In this document: piece by piece, positions 23,508 to 32,795 of the stretch | Position numbering within the stretch: position 1 is the first letter of the stretch | Layout: each line of letters opens with the position of its first letter | NCBI RefSeq assembly: GCF_900215205.1 | Contig: NZ_OBDY01000012.1 | Location: 124,001-188,000, forward strand | From: Paractinoplanes atraurantiacus | GTDB taxonomy: Bacteria; Actinomycetota; Actinomycetes; Mycobacteriales; Micromonosporaceae | Reading direction: 5' to 3' | DNA length: 64,000 nt | Translations under genes and position numbers: made by a program | The notes under the pieces: generated by a model | What the model was told of the DNA's origin: nothing | Seen by the model: the letters and a program-made list of their open reading frames with translations, nothing else | Databases searched by the model: none

Positions 23508-24128
23508 TCAGCCGACCGGCGCTGGGTAGCCGCCTGACTGCTCGGCCACCAGCGTTGCCATGGCGTGCTCGACAACTCCTACCAGCACCTGCTTGACCGA
23601 CTCGCGATGGCGGGCGTCGCACATGATCAGCGGGACGTGTGGCGGGATCGCCAGCGCCTCGCGGACCTCGTCGGGCTCGTAGCGGGGCGCGCCGTCGAAG
23701 CAGTTCAGCGCGACCAGGTACGGCAGGTGACGGTTTTCGAAGTAGTCGAGCGGCGCGAACGCGTCGGCGATGCGCCGCGTGTCGACCAGCACTGCCGCAC
23801 CGACGGCGCCGCGGATCAGCTCGTCCCACATGAACCAGAAACGGGTCTGACCTGGGGTGCCGAAGAGGTAAAGGATCAGGTCGTCGGCCATGGTGATGCG
23901 ACCGAAGTCCATGGCGACCGTCGTGGTCCCCTTGCCGGGCACCTTGGACGCGTCGTCGATCCCCTGGCCGGCCGAGGTCATCACGGCCTCGGTCGTCAGC
24001 GGCTCGATCTCGGAGACCGCACCGACCAGCGTCGTCTTGCCGACGCCGAAACCTCCGGCGACGACGATCTTCGCGGAGGTGATCTCCTTGGGTTGCGCCC
24101 CCGCCCGCTCAGAGCTTGCGAAGTCCAC
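23508..24128 (-). CDS. cvnD: Conservon GTP-binding protein CvnD
   Basis: 206-residue small Ras-like GTPase of the conservon family. P-loop VAGGFGVGKTT (near residue 23), G3 region LYLFGTPGQTRFWFMWDEL and a G4 variant ALNCFDG in place of NKxD. In Streptomyces, CvnD cycles GTP in a membrane-associated complex with CvnA-C and affects development and secondary metabolism. It is the last gene of the cvnABCD set and overlaps cvnC by 20 bases, so translation is coupled. Confidence 0.95.
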   Translation of the reverse strand: MDFASSERAGAQPKEITSAKIVVAGGFGVGKTTLVGAVSEIEPLTTEAVMTSAGQGIDDASKVPGKGTTTVAMDFGRITMADDLILYLFGTPGQTRFWFMWDELIRGAVGAAVLVDTRRIADAFAPLDYFENRHLPYLVALNCFDGAPRYEPDEVREALAIPPHVPLIMCDARHRESVKQVLVGVVEHAMATLVAEQSGGYPAPVG

Positions 24129-24471
24129 CTAACACCCTTTCCAGCAGGTCCATCCGCTCCGTGAACCCAGTCTTGGGAGCGGCGCTGTGCAACGACAGCA
24201 GCCCGTCGGCCACCATGTCCGCGACGAGCACCCGCGCGACACCCAGCGGCAACCGGGAGAGCGCGGAAAGCTCGGCGAGGGACTGCGCTTTCGCCTCGCA
24301 CAGAACAGCGATGCGGTATTTGTCATGCCCGGCGAACCGGGCCTCTTGCAGGCCGGCCTGGCTGGCTACCAGGACCGCTTCGATCGGGATGTCCCGGCGT
24401 GGTTCCGTCCGCCCGCGGGTGACCGCGTACGGGCGCACAAGGTTGCCTCTCGGGTCCTGTGGCTGTCCCAT
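24109..24471 (-). CDS. cvnC: Conservon protein CvnC, DUF742
   Basis: 120 residues of the DUF742 family: the opening LVRPYAVTRGRT, a winged-helix-like core with LAELSALSRLPLGVARVLV and an end ERVLGGLRKL. DUF742 proteins act between the roadblock protein and the GTPase in conservons, and the helix-turn-helix-like core may bind protein rather than DNA. Gap to cvnB 32 bases, overlap with cvnD 20. Confidence 0.94.
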   Translation of the reverse strand: MGQPQDPRGNLVRPYAVTRGRTEPRRDIPIEAVLVASQAGLQEARFAGHDKYRIAVLCEAKAQSLAELSALSRLPLGVARVLVADMVADGLLSLHSAAPKTGFTERMDLLERVLGGLRKL

Positions 24472-24503
24472 CCGCTCCTCACCCCGTTCCGGCGGTCCGG
24501 CCT

Positions 24504-24911
24504 CTAATGACTGACTGCTTCACGCGCGACCGGCGAGAGCGCCGCGCCGACCCGCTCGACCAGCAACGCCATCTCGTATCCGACCTGGCCGACGTCGCAG
24601 CTGCGGGCGGCGAGCACGGCCATCGCGGAGCCGTCGCTGATCGACATGAGGAAGAGGTATCCGCTCTCCATCTCGATGATCGTCTGCTGGACGGTGCCGG
24701 CGTTGAACATGCGTGAGGCGCCGTCGGTCAGGCTGACCACGCCGGAGGTGATGGCGGCCAGCTGGTCGGCCCGGTCGGCGGGCAGGTCGCGTGAGGCGGC
24801 CAGCAGCAGCCCGTCGGCGGACACGGCCACGACGTGGGCGATGCCGGCCACGCTGTTGGCGAAGTTGTTGAGCAGCCAGCCCATGTCCTGCATGGTGGGG
24901 GGCCTGGTCAC
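24504..24911 (-). CDS. cvnB: Conservon roadblock/LC7 protein CvnB
   Basis: 135-residue roadblock/LC7 domain protein (MGWLLNNFANSVAGIAHVVA, SADGLLLAASRDLPADRADQ, FLMSISDGSAMAVLA). This is the MglB-like role: a GTPase-activating or scaffold protein for CvnD. The GTG start overlaps the cvnA stop by one base (TAGTG). An ATG 18 bases further in, at 24893, gives the more usual N-terminus and cannot be excluded. Confidence 0.95.
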   Translation of the reverse strand: MTRPPTMQDMGWLLNNFANSVAGIAHVVAVSADGLLLAASRDLPADRADQLAAITSGVVSLTDGASRMFNAGTVQQTIIEMESGYLFLMSISDGSAMAVLAARSCDVGQVGYEMALLVERVGAALSPVAREAVSH

Positions 24912-27904
24912 TAGTCGGTCTCCTTAGCCTGGGAGGCGGCGGACTCGGCGGTGCCGTCCGTCCGCCCGCGTTGCACTCCCCGGTGGTACGCGGACAGCAA
25001 CCCGCGGACCTCGTCGGGGCTGCGGCGGTTCTGCGCCTTGGGTCCCGGCTGCACGCCGCCGGGCACGAGCTGTGCCTGCGGGACGCGCTTGGGGAGGCCG
25101 GATCTCGTGGTCCCGGCGTCGACCGGCTCAGCCGCCGCCATGGCCCGTTTCCATCCATCGTCCGCCGCTGTCTTCCACCGGTCCTCCTCAGCAGGACGCT
25201 GTCTCGGAACCGACGGTCCATTGTGCCCGGTGGCCGTCGGCGCCGGTTTCTCGGGCTTGGGAGCGGGCGGCGGCGGTGGCGACACGGGCGCCGGAGCGGC
25301 CGGAGCCGGAGCCGGAGCCGGAGCCGGGGACGCCGGGGCGGCGGCCGGGGCCGGGGCGGCGGCGGCCGTCGGCGCGGCGGGGGCCGGGGCCGCGTTGGGC
25401 GGGGGCGCGTAGCCCGCCGTCGGCATGCCGAACTGCTCCTGGCTCGCCCCGTCGTGGTTGCGGAACCAGCTCTGCTGCATCTGAACGAAGATCGGGGAAT
25501 CGTTGCGGTCCTCGACCGGCGCCGCCATCGGCTGCGCCGGCACCGGGGGCATCGCGGCGAGCGCCGCACCCCAGCCACCGGTCGGCGCCGAGACGGGCGG
25601 AGCGGAGACCGGCGGGGCCGAGACCGGAGGGGCCGAGACCGGAGGCGTCACGGTCGGCGTCTGCATCGTCGGGGTGAAGCCGTTCATCGTCGGCGCGTTC
25701 TGCGTCTGCGAGATCGTCTTCGAGACCCGGGTCGGCAGCGGCGGGCGGTTCGGCGTCGGCCGCACCTCGGGGTCGCTCGGCGGGCGCTGCGACGGGAAGA
25801 CCGGCAGCTGCGGGTGCGACGGCATCTCCTGCACCGGCTCGGGGGCCGGCGGCTCGATGGTCGGCAGCGTGGCCGTGGCCGCGCGAGAGGCCCGGCCGTC
25901 CCAGCCACCGGACGGGGCCGCGCCCAGCTCCGGGCGCGGGCCGCCGCCGAACGTGTCGTAGCGGCGCGGCGTGACGACGATGCTGCTCGGCAGCGTGACC
26001 TGGGCGACCGTGCCGCCTTCGAGGTTGGCCCGCAGCTCGACCTTGATGCCGTAGCGCGAGGCGAGCCGGGACACCACGGCCAGGCCCATCAGGCGGAACG
26101 CCGCGACGTCCACGCTGGGCGGCTCGGCCAGGCGGCGGTTGAGCTGGTCCATCTGCTCCTCGGACATGCCGAGACCGCGGTCCTCCACCTGGATCACGAC
26201 GTAGTCGCGGATGCGGCGGCCGTCGGCGACCACGACGGTGGTCGGCGGCGAGAAGCGGGTGGCGTTGTCGAGCAGCTCGGCCACGAGGCGGACCACGTCG
26301 TTGACGGCGAGCGCGGCGATCGAGACGTCGGTGTCGACAGTGCCGAACTCGATGCGGTTGTAGAGCTCGACCTCGGACTGCGCGGCGCGCAGCGCGTCGA
26401 CGACCAGCGCGTCCTCGCGCCGCGGCGGGCTCGAGTCGGCGCCGGCCAGCACGAGCAGGTTCTCGTCGTTGCGGCGCATCCGGGTGGCCAGGTGGTCGAG
26501 CTCGAACAGCTGCGCGAGCCTCTTCGGGTCCTCCTCGTTGCGCTCGATCATGTCGAGCTCGCCGATCATCCGGTCGACCAGCGACTGCGAGCGGCGGGCC
26601 AGGTTGAGGAACATGGTCGAGACGCTGGTGCGCAGCGCGGCCTGCTCGGCCGCGATGCGGACCGCCTCGCGGTGCACCACGTTGAAGGCCTGGGCGACCT
26701 GGCCGATCTCGTCGCGGTTGGGCAGCTGGATCGGCTCGCGCACCTGGCGGACGATGTCGTCGGCGCCACCCTCGCCGAGGTTCTTGGCGTCGCGGAGCTT
26801 GGTCACGGCGTCGGGCAGGTCGCGGTTGGCCACGGCGAGCGCGCCCTCACGCAGCCGGCGCAGCGACATGTTGAGCGAGCGGGCCAGGATCACGGCGAGC
26901 GCGATGGCGATGATCAGCACGATCACGACCAGGGCCGACTCGATCGCGGCCTGGCGGACGACGGAGTCGCGGTCGTCGCCGGTCGCCTTCACGATCTTCG
27001 CCTCGAGCTGCTGCTCGGCCCAGCGCATCAGGTCGACCACGGCGCCGAACGCCTCGGTGATGTCGGCCGCGGGCACGCTCTCACCGCGGCCGAGCTGGGT
27101 GGCGACGCCGTCGACCAGGTTGACCGCGTCGCCGCTGACCACCTTGTCGGCCAGGGCGCGCTGCTCGGCGCTGGCGACCAGGGAGAAGGTGGTCAGCGCC
27201 TCCTGCTGGCTGGTCTGGGTGGCGATGAAGGTGACCCGCTGCTCCTCGCTGAGGTCGTCGGCGACCCGCGCGGCGTACGAGACCGCCTCCTGCTCGGCCG
27301 TGCCGGCCTTGGCCCGGGCGAACGCGGAGAGCGCCCGCAGGCTGTCGGCGATGTCGCCGTCGCCGGCCAGCTGGCTGACCGAGTCGCCGTACGCGACCAG
27401 GTCGGTGATGACCACGCCGTAGCGGGAGACCGCCTCGGCCACGGCGATGCCCTCGTGCTTGCTGACCGCCGTGCGGGTGGCGTCCATCGTGTTGAGGTGG
27501 TCGTCGATGCGCGCGAGACGGTCGGCCACGGCGCCGGGCGAGTCGTCGACGCCGGCCCGGTGCGAGCGGTAGACGGCGATCTGGGCGTCGCTGTTGCGCA
27601 CCGCGGCGTCGTAGGCGTCGGGCTTGGCGCCGGCCGGTGCGGCCAGATAGGCCGCGGCGGCCATGCGCTCGGTGTGCAGCAGCTGCGTCAGCGCCGAGAT
27701 GTCGGTGTCGAGCTTGGTGAGCTCCTCGACCTGACCGGCGGCCGACGCGCGCTGTCCGATGTCGACAAGGCGCGTGGTGGCGAGAACGATTACTGCGGCC
27801 AGGGGCACGAGGAGGATCAGCGCCAGCTTCGAACGGATGCGCGCATCCCGAAGCCGGGGGAAGACACCACGGCGTGCCACCTGGGTCGAAGATCCGGTGC
27901 TCAC
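24911..27904 (-). CDS. cvnA: Conservon sensor kinase CvnA with NIT-like domain
   Basis: 997 residues. N-terminal helix (LALILLVPLAAVIVLAT, ~27-45), an extracytoplasmic helical domain resembling the nitrate/nitrite-sensing NIT fold (LTQLLHTERMAAAAYLAAP), a second membrane helix (~325-345), HAMP region, then a dimerisation helix LFELDHLATRMRRNDENLLV and a HATPase domain (ELLDNATRFSPP, VEDRGLGMS). The last ~330 residues are a Pro/Ala-rich tail with PPVSA repeats. GTG start with GGAGA. It heads cvnABCD and is divergent from the lipoprotein/ATPase pair, which may supply its signal. Confidence 0.94.
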   Translation of the reverse strand: MSTGSSTQVARRGVFPRLRDARIRSKLALILLVPLAAVIVLATTRLVDIGQRASAAGQVEELTKLDTDISALTQLLHTERMAAAAYLAAPAGAKPDAYDAAVRNSDAQIAVYRSHRAGVDDSPGAVADRLARIDDHLNTMDATRTAVSKHEGIAVAEAVSRYGVVITDLVAYGDSVSQLAGDGDIADSLRALSAFARAKAGTAEQEAVSYAARVADDLSEEQRVTFIATQTSQQEALTTFSLVASAEQRALADKVVSGDAVNLVDGVATQLGRGESVPAADITEAFGAVVDLMRWAEQQLEAKIVKATGDDRDSVVRQAAIESALVVIVLIIAIALAVILARSLNMSLRRLREGALAVANRDLPDAVTKLRDAKNLGEGGADDIVRQVREPIQLPNRDEIGQVAQAFNVVHREAVRIAAEQAALRTSVSTMFLNLARRSQSLVDRMIGELDMIERNEEDPKRLAQLFELDHLATRMRRNDENLLVLAGADSSPPRREDALVVDALRAAQSEVELYNRIEFGTVDTDVSIAALAVNDVVRLVAELLDNATRFSPPTTVVVADGRRIRDYVVIQVEDRGLGMSEEQMDQLNRRLAEPPSVDVAAFRLMGLAVVSRLASRYGIKVELRANLEGGTVAQVTLPSSIVVTPRRYDTFGGGPRPELGAAPSGGWDGRASRAATATLPTIEPPAPEPVQEMPSHPQLPVFPSQRPPSDPEVRPTPNRPPLPTRVSKTISQTQNAPTMNGFTPTMQTPTVTPPVSAPPVSAPPVSAPPVSAPTGGWGAALAAMPPVPAQPMAAPVEDRNDSPIFVQMQQSWFRNHDGASQEQFGMPTAGYAPPPNAAPAPAAPTAAAAPAPAAAPASPAPAPAPAPAAPAPVSPPPPPAPKPEKPAPTATGHNGPSVPRQRPAEEDRWKTAADDGWKRAMAAAEPVDAGTTRSGLPKRVPQAQLVPGGVQPGPKAQNRRSPDEVRGLLSAYHRGVQRGRTDGTAESAASQAKETD
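25590..25649. repeat. 15-bp repeat, four copies, in the cvnA tail
   Basis: Four units of GAGACCGGAGGGGCC type at 25590, 25605, 25620 and 25635 encode PPVSA pentapeptides in the proline-rich C-terminal tail. Shorter CCGGAG hexamer runs lie nearby at about 25291-25325 and encode alternating Ala-Pro. Confidence 0.8.
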
Positions 27905-28188
27905 GACTTCTCCTCCGTGGTCATCCCCGTGTCTCCGTGCCCGCCTGAGCGCTGCGGCCCGGGAATTTCATCAGAACGGACATTGGTTTGGGAAGTCCGG
28001 AAACTCCTCGAAACGAACTCCCCGCCCGACTGTTGGATGCATTGCCAGTTCCACAATCGACATTCACACCTCTTTGACGTGCACGAATATGCCGACCACG
28101 ACAATCCGTGATGACCCGGTCACGATCAAACTGCAAGATTCCAACCAATATGTGAGACAAGCGTCTCGCTCCATCGATGGACCTCTGC

Positions 28189-28217
28189 TTGACCAGGGGC
28201 CCTCACGTTGGCAAGGT
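28189..28217 (+). promoter_or_regulatory. Putative promoter of the lipoprotein/ATPase operon
   Basis: TTGACC (28189-28194), 17 bases, CAAGGT (28212-28217). The -35 is strong, the -10 is one base from TAAGGT. Transcription would start near 28225, giving a leader of about 47 bases. Confidence 0.4.
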
Positions 28218-28230
28218 TTGGCGCGTTCGA

Positions 28231-28247
28231 ACGGACATCTTGTCCGT
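28231..28247. promoter_or_regulatory. 7-bp palindrome near the predicted transcript start
   Basis: ACGGACA-TCT-TGTCCGT lies 25 bases before the lipoprotein start codon and just after the predicted start site. It could be an operator or a 5' hairpin. Confidence 0.4.
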
Positions 28248-28271
28248 ATCGCCTTTCTAGGAGGCACCGCA

Positions 28272-29435
28272 GTGCGGCTCCCCCGCATCACCGCGGCATA
28301 TGCCGTGGCCTCGATGCTCCTCGTCGCCGGTGCGGCCGGCTGCTCCTCGGACGACGGCAAGCCGGCAGCGTCCGAAGTGATCACGATCGCCGCCGACCTC
28401 GACAACTCGTCGCCCGTCGACATCGCGTACGCGCGCGCCCTTCAGCTGCGGATCGAGCAGGTGAACGCCTCGGGCCAGCTCGGCGACCGGCAGCTGCGAC
28501 TGACCACACAGGACAACCGGAACGACCCGACGTCCTCGATGCGCAACATCGGCGCGTTCGCCGACGACCGCTCGGTCGCCGCGATCGTCTCCGGCGCCTG
28601 CGACCAATGCGTGGTCGGCGCGGCCAAGACGATCAACGACAAGAAGGTGCCGACCATCTCGCTGGGCGCCTCCGAGGAAGTCGTCAACCCGGTTTCCAGC
28701 CGTCGGTACATCTTCAAGATCGGCCCGAACTCGGCCGACAACGCGTCGGCGATGGTGTCCGAGCTGCGCAAGGCGAAAACCAAGAACATCGGCGTCCTGT
28801 ACGCCGACGACCTTTACGGGCGCGGCGCCCAGAAGGCGCTGTTCACCAAGACGACCGGCACCGGCATCACGTCGGTGGGAGCCCGCGCGGTCAAGCCGAC
28901 CGCCACCGACATCACCCAGGCGATCGGCACGCTGGCCGCGCGCAACCCGAGCGCCATCGTCGTGCTGACCGCACCCGACCTGGCCCAGCTGGCCGCGGTC
29001 AACCTGAAGCAGGTCGGATACAAGGGCCGGGTGTATTTCGACGCCGCGGCCGCCGGCGACCTGTTCATCCCGGCCACCGCCTCCTCGGCCACGAACAACG
29101 TCCGGATGGTCTTCACCCAGATCCTGGCGATCGACGACGTCATCGCGACCACGCCCGCGAAATCCTCGCGCAAGCAGTGGTTCCGCGACTACACCTCGCG
29201 CTACGGCAGCTACTCGGGCGTCGCCGCCTTCGCCGCGGACGCGGTCGACCTGGTCGCCGACGCGGTGGCCCGGGTCGGCGCCGACCGCGAGGGCATCCGC
29301 GACATCCTGGAGACCTCGCAGGTCGACGGCCTCTCCGGGCCGCTGCGCCTGACCCCGGACAACCACTCCGGCCTGATGCCGCAGGCGCTCACCGTGCTGG
29401 TGGCCCGGGCCGGCCGCTGGCGGCTCGCCTCATGA
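28272..29435 (+). CDS. Branched-chain-amino-acid-type solute-binding lipoprotein
   Basis: 387 residues: a signal peptide ending in a lipobox (LLVAGAAGC), then a periplasmic-binding fold of the LivK type (VDIAYARALQLRIEQVNASG, a receptor-like DDRSVAAIVSGACDQCVVGA, IGVLYADDLYGRGAQKALF, VYFDAAAAGDLFI). The GTG start has AGGAGG 8 bases upstream. The stop overlaps the ATPase gene by 4 bases (ATGA). No permease gene is present in the window. The protein is divergently paired with cvnA, so it may act in sensing as well as, or rather than, uptake. Confidence 0.9.
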   Translation: MRLPRITAAYAVASMLLVAGAAGCSSDDGKPAASEVITIAADLDNSSPVDIAYARALQLRIEQVNASGQLGDRQLRLTTQDNRNDPTSSMRNIGAFADDRSVAAIVSGACDQCVVGAAKTINDKKVPTISLGASEEVVNPVSSRRYIFKIGPNSADNASAMVSELRKAKTKNIGVLYADDLYGRGAQKALFTKTTGTGITSVGARAVKPTATDITQAIGTLAARNPSAIVVLTAPDLAQLAAVNLKQVGYKGRVYFDAAAAGDLFIPATASSATNNVRMVFTQILAIDDVIATTPAKSSRKQWFRDYTSRYGSYSGVAAFAADAVDLVADAVARVGADREGIRDILETSQVDGLSGPLRLTPDNHSGLMPQALTVLVARAGRWRLAS

Positions 29436-30181
29436 TCCGCATCGAGAACGTGTCGCGCACCTTCACCGGCCGCTCGGGCACGGTCGAGGCGCTGCGCGAC
29501 GTGAGCCTCACCGTGGCCGACGGCGAGTTCGTGGCCGTGGTCGGCCGCTCCGGCTGCGGCAAGTCGACGCTGCTGCGGCTGATCGCCGGCCTGCTCCCCG
29601 CGACCGGCGGGCAGATCGAGGTGTCCGGCGAGCGGGTGGTCAAGCCGCGCCGCGACGTGGCCATGATGTTCCAGCGCCCGGCCCTGCTGCCGTGGCGGTC
29701 GGTGCTCGACAACGTGCTGCTGCCGGTGCAGATCTTCGGCTGGCGCAAGGCGGAATACGTGTCCCGCGCCCACGATCTGCTGGCGCTGACCGGCCTGACC
29801 GGCTTCGAGAAAAGGCTGCCGCACGAGCTCTCGGGCGGCATGCAGCAGCGGGTGGCGCTGTGCCGCGCGCTGATCGGCCGCCCCCGCGTGATGCTGATGG
29901 ACGAGCCGTTCTCGGCGCTCGACCCGCTGATTCGCGAGGAGCTGTCGGTCGAGCTCCAGCGCATCCACATGGAGCAGGCGCCGACCACGGTCTTCGTCAC
30001 CCATTCGATCGACGAGGCGGTGCTGCTGGCCGACCGGGTGGTGGTGCTGAGCCCGCGGCCGGGCCGGGTCCGCGAGATCCTCGACGTGCGCATCCCGCGC
30101 CCCCGCACGCTGGGCCGCACGGCCAACCTCGAAGAGGTCGCCCGCTGCAGCGCCCAGCTCCATGATCTCTTGATGGCGTGA
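29432..30181 (+). CDS. ABC transporter ATPase, nitrate/sulfonate/taurine type
   Basis: 249 residues with Walker A GRSGCGKSTLL, Q-loop MMFQRPALLPWRSVLDNVLL, signature LSGGMQQRVALCRAL, Walker B VMLMDEPFSALD and H-loop VFVTHSIDEAV. The LLPWRSVLDNV segment is typical of NitT/TauT/SsuB ATPases rather than LivG/LivF, the usual partners of a LivK-type binding protein. It is coupled to the lipoprotein gene. The permease is missing from the locus. Confidence 0.92.
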   Translation: MIRIENVSRTFTGRSGTVEALRDVSLTVADGEFVAVVGRSGCGKSTLLRLIAGLLPATGGQIEVSGERVVKPRRDVAMMFQRPALLPWRSVLDNVLLPVQIFGWRKAEYVSRAHDLLALTGLTGFEKRLPHELSGGMQQRVALCRALIGRPRVMLMDEPFSALDPLIREELSVELQRIHMEQAPTTVFVTHSIDEAVLLADRVVVLSPRPGRVREILDVRIPRPRTLGRTANLEEVARCSAQLHDLLMA

Positions 30182-30278: not shown

Positions 30279-31481
30279 GTGCCGGGCATGACTTTCCGCA
30301 CCTGGGCGAAGTTGTTGGGAGCCTCGTTCGGCGTTGCCGCGCTGGCCGGGGCTTCGCAGCTGGGCCTGGCCTACGGGTTGGGCGTCCTGCGCTTCTCCCG
30401 CGTCGTCGAGGTCACCGCGCGTGACGAGTGGATCGCCCAGCTGGCCTGGGTGGCGTGGTTCGCGATGACCGCCGCCGCGATCGGCGCCGTCGTCGCCCGC
30501 ACGCAACTGCCGAAACGCGCCCCCGCCGGCGCCCGCTTCGTCCCGGCGGTGGTGGCCGGCTTCGGCGCGGCCGCGATCCTGCCGCTCACCATGCAGCCGG
30601 CCCGGGCGGCCGAGGTCACCGGCGTCGACCCGGTCTTCGTGGTCGGCGCGTGCGCGGCGCTCGGTGCGGCGGTGGGCATCTTCGCGGCGTACGCGGCCCT
30701 GCGCAGTGCCGTCGCCCGCTGGAGCATCCTGACGCTGACGGTCGCGACGTGGGTGATCGCGCTGGTCTCGGTGGCGCCGTCGCTGAGGCCGGGTCAAGAG
30801 CCTGCTTCCGTACGCCTCGGCGTGCTCGACGTGAGCGTTCTGCCGGACAAGGTGGTCGATCAGGCCGCGCTGTTCACGATGCCGGCGCTCGCCCTGATCA
30901 GCGGCCTGGTGATCGGCCTGATCGCCCGCCGCGGCCGGCACTCGCTGGTCGCGATCGCGCTCTCCGGCCTGCCCGGCCCGGCGCTGCTCACGGTGGCCTA
31001 CCTGATCGCCGGCCCCGGCGCGGGCGCCGACCGCTACCAGGAGGTTCCGTACTGGGCGGCGATGACCGCCGCGGGCGCCGGCGTCTTCGGCTCCGTGCTG
31101 GCCGCGGTCTTCCGGCGCGGCCCGGCCGGCTCGGCGGCGGAGGCTCCGCCCACTCCCGACCGCCCGCCGCTGCCCCAGCGCGACGCCCAGCCCCACTCGG
31201 CGATCGCCCAGGCCGCCGGCGGCCCGTCGGCCAATGCCCCCACGGGCCCGCTGCCCGGCGCGGGTGCCGCCCAGGCCATCACCGGCCGCGCGAACGTCGC
31301 CGCGGCCCGGGCCTCCGTGGCCGCCCGCGCGTCGGCCGCCGCCCAGCGCCCCGAGCACGAGCTGCGCCCGTCCGACACCGGCGTGCTGCCGACACCGTCG
31401 TTCGACGGCTTCACTCCGCCCCAGCCCCGCCCGGGCAAGGAGAACGAGCTGTCCGACTGGGTGGGCGGCCTCGGCCGGTAA
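30279..31481 (+). CDS. Polytopic membrane protein of unknown function
   Basis: 400 residues with about seven or eight hydrophobic helices in the first ~285 (for example LLGASFGVAALAGASQLGLA, LAWVAWFAMTAAAIGAVVA, LTLTVATWVIALVSVAP), then a Pro/Ala-rich cytoplasmic tail ending SDWVGGLGR. No family was recognised. The GTG at 30279 is preferred because GGAGAGG lies 10 bases upstream; an ATG at 30288 is the alternative. It is separated from the ATPase gene by 97 bases and does not look like an ABC permease. Confidence 0.8.
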   Translation: MPGMTFRTWAKLLGASFGVAALAGASQLGLAYGLGVLRFSRVVEVTARDEWIAQLAWVAWFAMTAAAIGAVVARTQLPKRAPAGARFVPAVVAGFGAAAILPLTMQPARAAEVTGVDPVFVVGACAALGAAVGIFAAYAALRSAVARWSILTLTVATWVIALVSVAPSLRPGQEPASVRLGVLDVSVLPDKVVDQAALFTMPALALISGLVIGLIARRGRHSLVAIALSGLPGPALLTVAYLIAGPGAGADRYQEVPYWAAMTAAGAGVFGSVLAAVFRRGPAGSAAEAPPTPDRPPLPQRDAQPHSAIAQAAGGPSANAPTGPLPGAGAAQAITGRANVAAARASVAARASAAAQRPEHELRPSDTGVLPTPSFDGFTPPQPRPGKENELSDWVGGLGR

Positions 31482-31548
31482 CGCATAGGCAAACGTCAAT
31501 GGAATGATGCGGCCGGGAGGTACCGCGAGGCCCTCCCGCCGTCGCACG

Positions 31549-31992
31549 ATGTCGTCCATGACCGCTGACCGGTACCCTCGCCTCCGCCGGTTCCTCACCG
31601 GCCTCGCCCTGGTCGTCGCCCTCTCCGGCACCGCCCTGGTGGCGCCGGCCGTGGTGGCGCCCACGACCACCGACGCGGCCCAGGCCGCCGTCCACTCGAC
31701 CTGCACCATCTCCCGCTGCTCGGCCGCCCGCACGACCCGCACGGGATGGTCCACCCTGGGCTGGCCCACGAGCAGCGGCTGGTACGCGTGGCCGTACGGC
31801 CAGTACAACTACACGGGCGGCACGTTCCAGAACCGCGAGAAGCAGCTCCCCGTGAACGCCACCTACAGCGAATACGACGTCTACGCCCGCACCCGCGGGG
31901 CGGCCCGGGACGCCTACCGCATCGTGGTCAACCGCTCCACAAGGGAGACCTGGTTCACCCCCGACCACTACGTGACGTTCTACAAGCTCTAG
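31549..31992 (+). CDS. Secreted guanyl-specific ribonuclease (RNase N1/T1, RNase Sa type)
   Basis: About 147 residues: a signal peptide (RRFLTGLALVVALSGTALVA) and a compact domain. The domain holds the signature order of microbial RNases: FQNREKQLPV, the catalytic glutamate in YSEYDVY, the arginine in RDAYRIVV and the histidine in TPDHYVTFYKL. Two cysteines (STCTISRC) lie at the start of the mature part. It cleaves RNA after G in the family. The start is uncertain (ATG at 31504, 31549 or 31558; none has a good ribosome site). No barstar-like inhibitor gene is adjacent. Confidence 0.88.
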   Translation: MSSMTADRYPRLRRFLTGLALVVALSGTALVAPAVVAPTTTDAAQAAVHSTCTISRCSAARTTRTGWSTLGWPTSSGWYAWPYGQYNYTGGTFQNREKQLPVNATYSEYDVYARTRGAARDAYRIVVNRSTRETWFTPDHYVTFYKL

Positions 31993-32113: not shown

Positions 32114-32120
32114 CCGAGCA

Positions 32121-32211
32121 CAACCCCACGGGAGTCCGGTGCACCGGGCTGAGAGGGGGGCTGGGAGCCCCCGACCGTCGAACCTGATCCGGGTCATGCC
32201 GGCGCAGGGAG
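32121..32211 (+). promoter_or_regulatory. TPP riboswitch (THI element)
   Basis: Contains the conserved CTGAGAG (32049 frame equivalent at 32149-32155) and the thiamine-box core ACCTGATCCGGGTCATGCCG followed by GCGCAGGGA (ending 32210). The variable stem is GGGGGCTGGGAGCCCCC. The final GGGA also forms part of the GGGAGGA ribosome site (32207-32213) of the first gene. Ligand binding is therefore likely to close the ribosome site and repress translation rather than rely on a separate terminator. Confidence 0.95.
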
Positions 32212-32220
32212 GAGCGTTCG

Positions 32221-32795
32221 TTGTTTCCTCGATTGCATGTAGTCACCGACTCGCTCGATGTGGTGCGAGGGGTGGTCGGCCACGGGCCGGTCGCCGTGCA
32301 GGTGCGGGTGAAATCGTCCGATCGGGCGGCCTACGAGCTGACCGTGGCCGCTCTCGACGTGTGCCGGCGTGCCGGTGACGCGCTCTGCCTGGTCGATGAC
32401 CGGGTGGGTGTGGCTCTGGCCGCCGGCGCCGACGGTGTCCACGTGGGCGCCGAGGATCTTCCCGTGGCCGTCGTGCGGCGGGTGCTGGGCGCCGGTGCGG
32501 TTGTGGGGGCCACGTGCCGTACACCAGAAACCGCTTTGAAAGCCGTCGCCGACGGCGCGTCCTATCTCGGCGTGGGGCCGGCGTTCGCCACCGTCAGCAA
32601 GGCGGGGCTGCCCGAGCCGTTCGGGCCTGAAGGGGTCGCGAAGGTCGTCGCCGCGGTGCCCGGCACGCCGGTCGTCGCCATCGGCGGGGTCACGGTCGAG
32701 CGGGTCGCGTTGCTCGACTCGTACGGGGTCGCGGCCATCTCGGCGATCGCCGGTGACCCGTCCGGCGCCGCGGCCGCCTTCCAAAGGGCGCTGGC

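Follow-up and report, generated by a model that had tools for sequence, protein, structure and literature searches.

What is the function of a transporter-type binding lipoprotein that is encoded opposite a conservon and next to an ATPase of another transporter class? The question is raised by a locus of Paractinoplanes atraurantiacus (genome size 10.9 Mb) within a 64-kb stretch of contig NZ_OBDY01000012.1 (positions 124,001 to 188,000), here called the window. The conservon genes cvnABCD are divergent from the gene of a LivK-type substrate-binding protein (SBP), which is followed by a NitT/TauT-type ATP-binding cassette (ABC) ATPase. We consider it moderately probable that this SBP is a binding-protein co-receptor of the conservon kinase CvnA, like GlnH-GlnX or TorT-TorS. 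The genes concerned are the following (coordinates refer to the window).

23508-24128, minus strand: cvnD, conservon small GTPase (ATP_bind_1, E 7.9e-33, and place in the operon)
24109-24471, minus strand: cvnC (DUF742, E 3.8e-28)
24504-24911, minus strand: cvnB, roadblock/LC7 protein (Robl_LC7, E 4.3e-23)
24911-27904, minus strand: cvnA, histidine-kinase-like conservon sensor with an extracytoplasmic NIT domain (HATPase_c, E 2.4e-12)
28272-29435, plus strand: LivK-type binding lipoprotein, SBP (Peripla_BP_6, E 5.9e-35)
29432-30181, plus strand: NitT/TauT-type ABC ATPase (ATGA overlap with the SBP stop; SaoA, TauB and NtrCD models)
30279-31481, plus strand: polytopic membrane protein, a conserved flank outside the unit, kept in nine of nine loci that lack the SBP

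The conservon gene set is complete, with CvnA, CvnB, CvnC and CvnD encoded in the order A-B-C-D on one strand. In a Pfam search the NIT domain (PF08376) covered CvnA residues 72-304 (E 1.9e-39), and the LPKR sequence near the C-terminus of CvnA fits the LPxR motif, a conservon trait according to the available text of PMC4316618. The SBP frame starts with GTG at 28272, with AGGAGG ahead of it; its lipobox cysteine (residue 24) showed no variation across 29 aligned sequences. The best NCBIfam models for the ATPase are of the SaoA, TauB and NtrCD types, each scoring under its curated cut-off, and at E 0.001 neither Pfam nor NCBIfam gave a match for the polytopic frame. A first-pass annotation of this DNA had described a NIT-type conservon divergent from a LivK-type lipoprotein that is coupled to a NitT/TauT ATPase. 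Profile matches and the ATGA overlap confirmed this description, and the 367 bases that it gave for the region between the divergent cvnA and SBP starts are correct.

Two sets of relatives were inspected for linkage between the lipoprotein gene and cvnA. The first comprised 59 loci, one per genome, taken from the lipoprotein matches listed among 150 genomes of the family; it holds most strong matches, leaves out near-duplicates and weaker rows, and is based on up to 12 scored candidates per genome. The second consisted of the best 80 of 159 relatives found and overlaps with the first in species; the nearest relative among these 80 was that of P. deccanensis (85% identity). The SBP gene divergently adjoins cvnA in 54 of the 59 loci and in 79 of the 80, the remaining one of the second set being a contig end. 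As the adjacency recurs to this extent, the arrangement exceeds chance. The SBP gene has a ratio of nonsynonymous to synonymous substitution rates (dN/dS) of 0.33. In many loci synteny extends to hemD, rplM and rpsI; the cvnA-SBP adjacency was kept where the fetched stretch shows no hemD (L079-L081, L084, L089 and L090). In an order-wide sample of 121 genomes, 12 matched A3 at 1e-60, and 11 of them belong to the family. The twelfth, G212, has relatives at 32-35%, and one of its two loci has a cvnD-like gene nearby.

In the other five loci of the first set (L091, L093, L096-L098), Liv permease and ATPase genes separate cvnA from the SBP gene. In these Micromonosporaceae loci the conservon has a related SBP gene and genes for Liv permeases and ATPases as neighbours; in L097, the SBP, two permeases and two ATPases are encoded in a row. 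A conservon beside full Liv genes is a possible ancestral state of the SBP-CvnA pairing. With LivH and LivM of L097 as queries, no homologue was detected in the window, and among 149 stretches (the window and 59, 9 and 80 loci) homologues were found in five only, which are exactly the loci with Liv genes between cvnA and the SBP gene. Of the components of a Liv/HAAT importer, the Peripla_BP_6 SBP is thus present, and permeases of the LivH/LivM type are not at the locus. The absence of an own-class permease at the locus therefore holds for the SBP. A further conservon was observed in L164-L168, where an SBP relative (26-30% identity) is convergent with cvnD; in L165, a 794-amino-acid frame without Pfam match lies beside this pair.

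Origin of the neighbouring ATPase

The first-pass annotation had stated that no permease is present, and neither NitT/TauT nor Liv permease homologues were found in the 64-kb window. It took this absence as a sign that the ATPase may be an unusual signalling partner. For the ATPase this argument was rejected, since its permease is encoded elsewhere. NitT/TauT permease homologues were found in 19 places of the genome, none of them on the contig of the window. An importer of this class requires the ATPase, a BPD_transp_1 permease and an NMT1 SBP together, and the ATPase is the only one of these here. The genes that follow the SBP gene are those of the ATPase, the polytopic frame without family and a protein with a ribonuclease match.

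Of the 54 adjacent loci, 47 also encode a BPD_transp_1 permease together with the ATPase. Most of the 47 have the permease gene and that of an NMT1-type SBP on the opposite strand, placed between the lipoprotein and ATPase genes, and a gene for an F420-type oxidoreductase (LLM) is often found as well. The ATPase alone remains in seven of the 54, as in the window. The NMT1 SBP and permease of P. atraurantiacus were located on contig 26 (G000:C26:133583-135517, L117), divergent from an F420-dependent LLM gene. Identities of the contig 26 copies to the proteins encoded at the relatives' loci are 73% (NMT1), 66% (permease) and 77% (LLM), and the 18 kb fetched around the NMT1 and permease genes contain no ATPase match. 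The importer is likewise split in G130, where the only ATPase match near the NMT1/permease copy (L139) has 29% identity. NMT1 genes were also found in P. deccanensis (92%), P. bogorensis (82%) and Actinoplanes sp. TBRC 11911 (78%) and are absent from the 17-kb loci of these strains. Taken together, these arrangements show that the missing permease has been relocated. The first-pass annotation had named a permease that is present in relatives and lost here as evidence against its model, and for the ATPase this is the situation found. The pair of LivK-type SBP and TauB-type ATPase is thus a secondary junction. The ATPase frame is intact (dN/dS 0.205 versus P. deccanensis), and the ATPase is probably still used in trans by the contig 26 importer.

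The second set of loci separates the lipoprotein from the importer genes. In this set, 54 loci contain permease and ATPase, 13 the ATPase only, four the permease only and nine neither; contig ends (L222, L225 and L256) account for two of the four and one of the nine, leaving two and eight, respectively. In the latter eight (L186, L188, L189, L191-L193, L203 and L205; seven from Actinoplanes/Paractinoplanes and one from Mangrovihabitans), the gene for a full-length SBP lies beside cvnA and is followed after 87-143 bases by the polytopic gene. NMT1 relatives in these eight genomes are distant (best 43-49% identity). When 150 of the 155-291 ATPase candidates per genome were scored, relatives with 67-72% identity were detected, in six of the eight genomes within 2 kb of a distant NMT1 relative; from their sequence context, these ATPases seem to be parts of other importers. 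Loci L195 and L200 lack the ATPase and have kept permease, NMT1 SBP, lipoprotein and cvnA. Co-occurrence of the whole set, which had been suggested as a check, is therefore seen for cvnA and the lipoprotein and not for the ATPase, which is absent at eight loci that retain both.

Divergence of the CvnA sensor

Nine genomes, seven of the genus Actinoplanes and two of the genus Micromonospora, have the conservon without the lipoprotein (SBP-less). The term means lack of an orthologue, as seven of the nine retain distant SBP relatives elsewhere; the underlying search (E 1e-30, at most 14 candidates per genome) matched 99 of the 150 genomes, with 31 matchless ones not listed. In the SBP-less genomes, the conservon sits between hemD and the polytopic gene, and in none of the nine does the interval from cvnA to the latter encode a lipoprotein, matching ATPase or permease. 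Searches for the NMT1 orthologue at E 1e-40 gave no match in six of the nine and relatives of 45-51% in three. ATPase candidates were scored in five of them to the same depth as above; the best was 66% (G126), and four had none at 1e-80. In trees of the CvnA core and of the sensor, each SBP-less group is nested in its own genus, and the lipoprotein was therefore lost twice independently. The stem lengths of the two groups (sensor/core) are 0.76/0.40 and 0.72/0.085.

Sensor identities were compared with 23 hand-picked SBP-containing rows of other genera as reference. In Actinoplanes, sensors of SBP-containing strains share 38.2% identity with their SBP-less congeners versus 50.5% with other genera. 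The corresponding control values, congeners versus other genera, are 79.1 and 74.6% for HemD and 93.0 and 89.7% for CvnB. In Micromonospora the sensor values are 51.2% (SBP-less congeners) and 58.0% (other genera), with 90.4 and 81.0% for HemD. The change in Micromonospora is specific to the sensor, as the CvnA core has 86.8% identity versus 83.8% to other genera.

At the level of single residues, 69 sensor sites are conserved in 59 SBP-containing rows, of which 23 are lost in the SBP-less Actinoplanes and 15 in the SBP-less Micromonospora. Twelve of the 69 are lost in both, versus 5.0 expected (Fisher p 3.8e-5). The cvnA start of L163 was set too far downstream, so that its first ~77 sensor residues were read as gaps; one of the 15 Micromonospora losses, site 62, consequently rests on L162 alone, and no shared site is affected. 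When sites were selected more strictly (71 sites from 45 rows), 11 were lost in the SBP-less Micromonospora; SBP-less Actinoplanes keep 16%, and eight diverged clades with the SBP 73-91%.

The 12 shared sites, here called signature sites, were then scored. Only rows scored after the choice of sites test them; some of these, for example L187, L197, L198 and L202, are discovery genomes again, L053, whose cvnA is truncated at a contig end, was excluded from the alignments, L172 was left out of the scoring, and L190 gave no scored sensor. The eight transporter-free genomes, which were not used in the choice of sites, keep 10-11 of the 12, and the nine SBP-less genomes, which defined the sites, keep 0-2. 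All 12 are present in two loci with permease and no ATPase, 11 in the 11 scored genomes with SBP and ATPase (the window among them), 11-12 in seven loci with the full gene set, and 8-12 in 51 mostly Micromonospora rows, a group that takes in a few other genera. In these alignments the fate of the signature sites follows that of the lipoprotein, independently of the NitT/TauT genes.

A structure model of the CvnA sensor (residues 1-345; mean predicted local distance difference test score, pLDDT, 91.1) has the NIT fold, matching NasR (4akk) with Z 32.1 over 273 residues at 2.8 A. The signature residues K199, Q233 and Q234 are the same in NasR. Of the NasR arginines in the QERAL and ER segments, which we take to be nitrate-binding, one ER arginine is matched, and the arginine of QERAL corresponds to glutamate in the profile. 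The signature sites may belong to a ligand pocket, to a docking face or to both. The lipoprotein model (mean pLDDT 90.6) matches type I binding proteins. Among the solved SBPs closest to it are aromatic-acid binders (p-coumarate, caffeate and phenylpyruvate; ~20% identity) as well as amino-acid binders, and an aromatic-acid ligand predicted from the fold is a lead only.

Competing readings and related systems

The proposed unit consists of cvnABCD and the divergent lipoprotein. The lipoprotein would be anchored outside the membrane and bind a small molecule; in its ligand-loaded (or ligand-free) form it would dock on the helical NIT sensor of CvnA. Docking would set the state of the kinase, with signalling presumably running from the lipoprotein to CvnA, which in turn would act through CvnB and CvnC on the GTPase CvnD. 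At this locus the lipoprotein no longer has an own-class permease to supply, and the ATPase is part of a separate NitT/TauT importer with the NMT1 SBP and permease on another contig. The locus represents an ordinary importer remnant beside an SBP-CvnA pairing that is conserved and probably functional. Conserved linkage, coupled evolution and lack of an own-class permease at the locus, by which SBP-assisted sensor kinases may be recognized, were all found.

Several observations weigh against this interpretation. Nine genomes retain the conservon although the SBP is gone, and these represent just two independent losses. As SBP, ATPase and NMT1 genes are all gone there, the question of which of them matters rests on the eight transporter-free genomes. 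The loss of K199, Q233 and Q234 may mean that the sensor gave up a ligand site of its own and not a docking face. The cytoplasmic core of CvnA has diverged too in the SBP-less Actinoplanes (72.2 versus 82.5% to other genera), and their sensors are more diverged overall (33.2%) than those of the eight SBP-containing clades (37.6-45.3%). The reverse test is weak, with the 22 sites lost in SBP-less Actinoplanes kept to 55% in SBP-less Micromonospora and to 62-75% in the eight clades. Where a full Liv operon adjoins the conservon, the sensors (27-31% identity) retain no more than 36-39% of the sites that SBP-less Micromonospora have lost. Finally, partial distance correlation discriminates poorly: r is 0.82 for SBP and sensor and, with an equal permutation p, still 0.67 for SBP and ATPase.

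Part of this evidence bears on other explanations. The lipoprotein might feed a Liv-type permease encoded elsewhere, with the conservon regulating that system or sensing the same ligand through its NIT domain, without contact between the two. The genome indeed contains other SBP relatives, one of which, on contig 37, has two ABC ATPase matches as neighbours; conservons do occur beside Liv genes and a related SBP in the five loci mentioned, and loss of a shared ligand would also alter the sensor. We nevertheless regard this explanation as rather unlikely, since the signature tracks the SBP and not the NitT/TauT genes and no LivH/LivM homologue was found in the 54 adjacent loci, the 80 loci and the window, genome-wide Liv permeases not having been searched. 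Neutral persistence is improbable in our estimate. It would attribute the adjacency to a stable stretch, glmM-rpsI-rplM-hemD-cvn, and the sensor change to general relaxation of CvnA, consistent with the synteny of hemD, rplM and rpsI and with the divergent core in SBP-less Actinoplanes. Against it stand the adjacency at loci without hemD, the dN/dS of the SBP gene, the sensor-specific change in Micromonospora, and the many identical sites that change in both SBP-less lineages.

The first-pass annotation had joined lipoprotein, ATPase, polytopic protein and CvnA in one sensing complex. The ATGA overlap, the intact ATPase frame with its low dN/dS and the SBP-ATPase correlation would suit such a complex; we consider it very improbable, as the ATPase is missing at the eight transporter-free loci and at L195 and L200, all with SBP and cvnA, the matching permease and NMT1 SBP are encoded in trans, and the polytopic gene, the proposed membrane partner, stays where SBP and ATPase are gone. 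The idea of a sensing unit thus survives for the lipoprotein and CvnA, given their adjacency and coupled sensor evolution, and was abandoned for the ATPase, which is accompanied by a permease in most relatives, and for the polytopic protein.

The favoured interpretation, that the SBP is a co-receptor of CvnA, has parallels in known systems. In the TorT-TorS system, a periplasmic binding protein docks on a helical-bundle sensor kinase. Solved TorT-TorS complexes (3o1i and 3o1j) were among the structure matches of the CvnA sensor; the TorS fold match itself (VIA-align; Z 10-12 over 111-117 residues) was discarded, being inside the range of unrelated helical bundles. In contrast to TorT-TorS, a conservon has no response regulator, according to the available text of PMC4316618; the ABC transporters that appear there are unrelated to the conservon question. 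The GlnH-GlnX-PknG system of Corynebacterium and Mycobacterium, as far as covered by the available text of PMC9769921, is similar in that an actinobacterial lipoprotein SBP takes part in signalling and in that its membrane partner has helical-bundle extracytoplasmic domains. It differs in that GlnX is a protein with four transmembrane segments acting on a Ser/Thr kinase, whereas here the presumed partner is the histidine-kinase-like NIT protein CvnA feeding a small GTPase, and the SBP is of the Peripla_BP_6 family. CvnE and CvnF are accessory proteins that give input to CvnA and are reported overwhelmingly for CvnA proteins without extracytoplasmic sensor; CvnF, which carries a GAF domain, has been proposed to allow cytosolic ligands to be sensed (PMC13343842, available text). 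Here, by contrast, CvnA carries a NIT sensor, and its candidate partner is a Peripla_BP_6 lipoprotein on the outside of the membrane and no GAF protein. NitT/TauT importers (SsuABC, TauABC etc.) are of the same class as the ATPase with its NMT1 SBP and permease in trans, but the genes are split over two loci here.

No description of binding-protein input to a conservon was found in the literature searched, which comprised open-licence papers. We give even chances to the broader proposition that bacterial Ras-like G-protein systems have a new type of input here. In this view, a lone binding lipoprotein that once served transport would act as extracytoplasmic co-receptor of a NIT-type CvnA across Micromonosporaceae, with about 12 sensor residues tied to it; the kinase would have been retuned or blinded twice after loss of the lipoprotein, and the unrelated importer split or dropped without effect on the pair. 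The linked lipoprotein offers a concrete, purifiable handle whose ligand is a candidate signal for the G-protein system, and SBP-less and transporter-free genomes provide natural comparison sets.

Shared intergenic region and flanking genes

Two elements were recorded in the 367-base region.

28189-28217, plus strand: putative SBP promoter TTGACC-17-CAAGGT, a conserved pattern
27965-27974, no strand assigned: cvnA-side element ATTTCATCAG (plus-strand letters), perhaps the cvnA promoter region

The pattern TTGAC-N16-19-[CT]AAGGT is present in 29 of 29 Actinoplanes-type and in 49 of 51 other intergenic regions and is absent from the interval between cvnA and the polytopic gene of all nine SBP-less loci. 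The cvnA-side element was seen in all 29 Actinoplanes-type regions and in 48 of the 51 others; as ATTTCA[TC]CAG with one base free, it is kept in each of the nine SBP-less loci. The first-pass annotation had suggested looking for joint regulation from this region; what is seen there is sequence conservation, which does not by itself show co-regulation. An inverted repeat, GAGAC-N4-GTCTC (28154-28167), precedes the putative SBP promoter. In several relatives it reads GGGAC-N4-GTCCC, a compensatory change, and forms of the repeat persist in some SBP-less loci. A longer inverted-repeat pattern at 28154-28167 has its sole perfect match in the genome there. A palindrome, CGGACA-N3-TGTCCG (28232-28246), lies between the putative SBP promoter and the ribosome-binding site; its pattern (N2-6) is present in 17 of 29 Actinoplanes-type and in none of 51 other intergenic regions. 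A shared operator for both promoters was rejected: the conserved elements do not establish co-regulation, and a palindrome search of the genome returned the locus and one place with one mismatch, versus one match of the reversed control pattern.

Behind the polytopic gene, a small gene at 31504-31992 encodes a protein that matches a ribonuclease family of Pfam. It is followed at 32118-32227 by a thiamine pyrophosphate (TPP) riboswitch ahead of thi genes, whose names were read from the frames.

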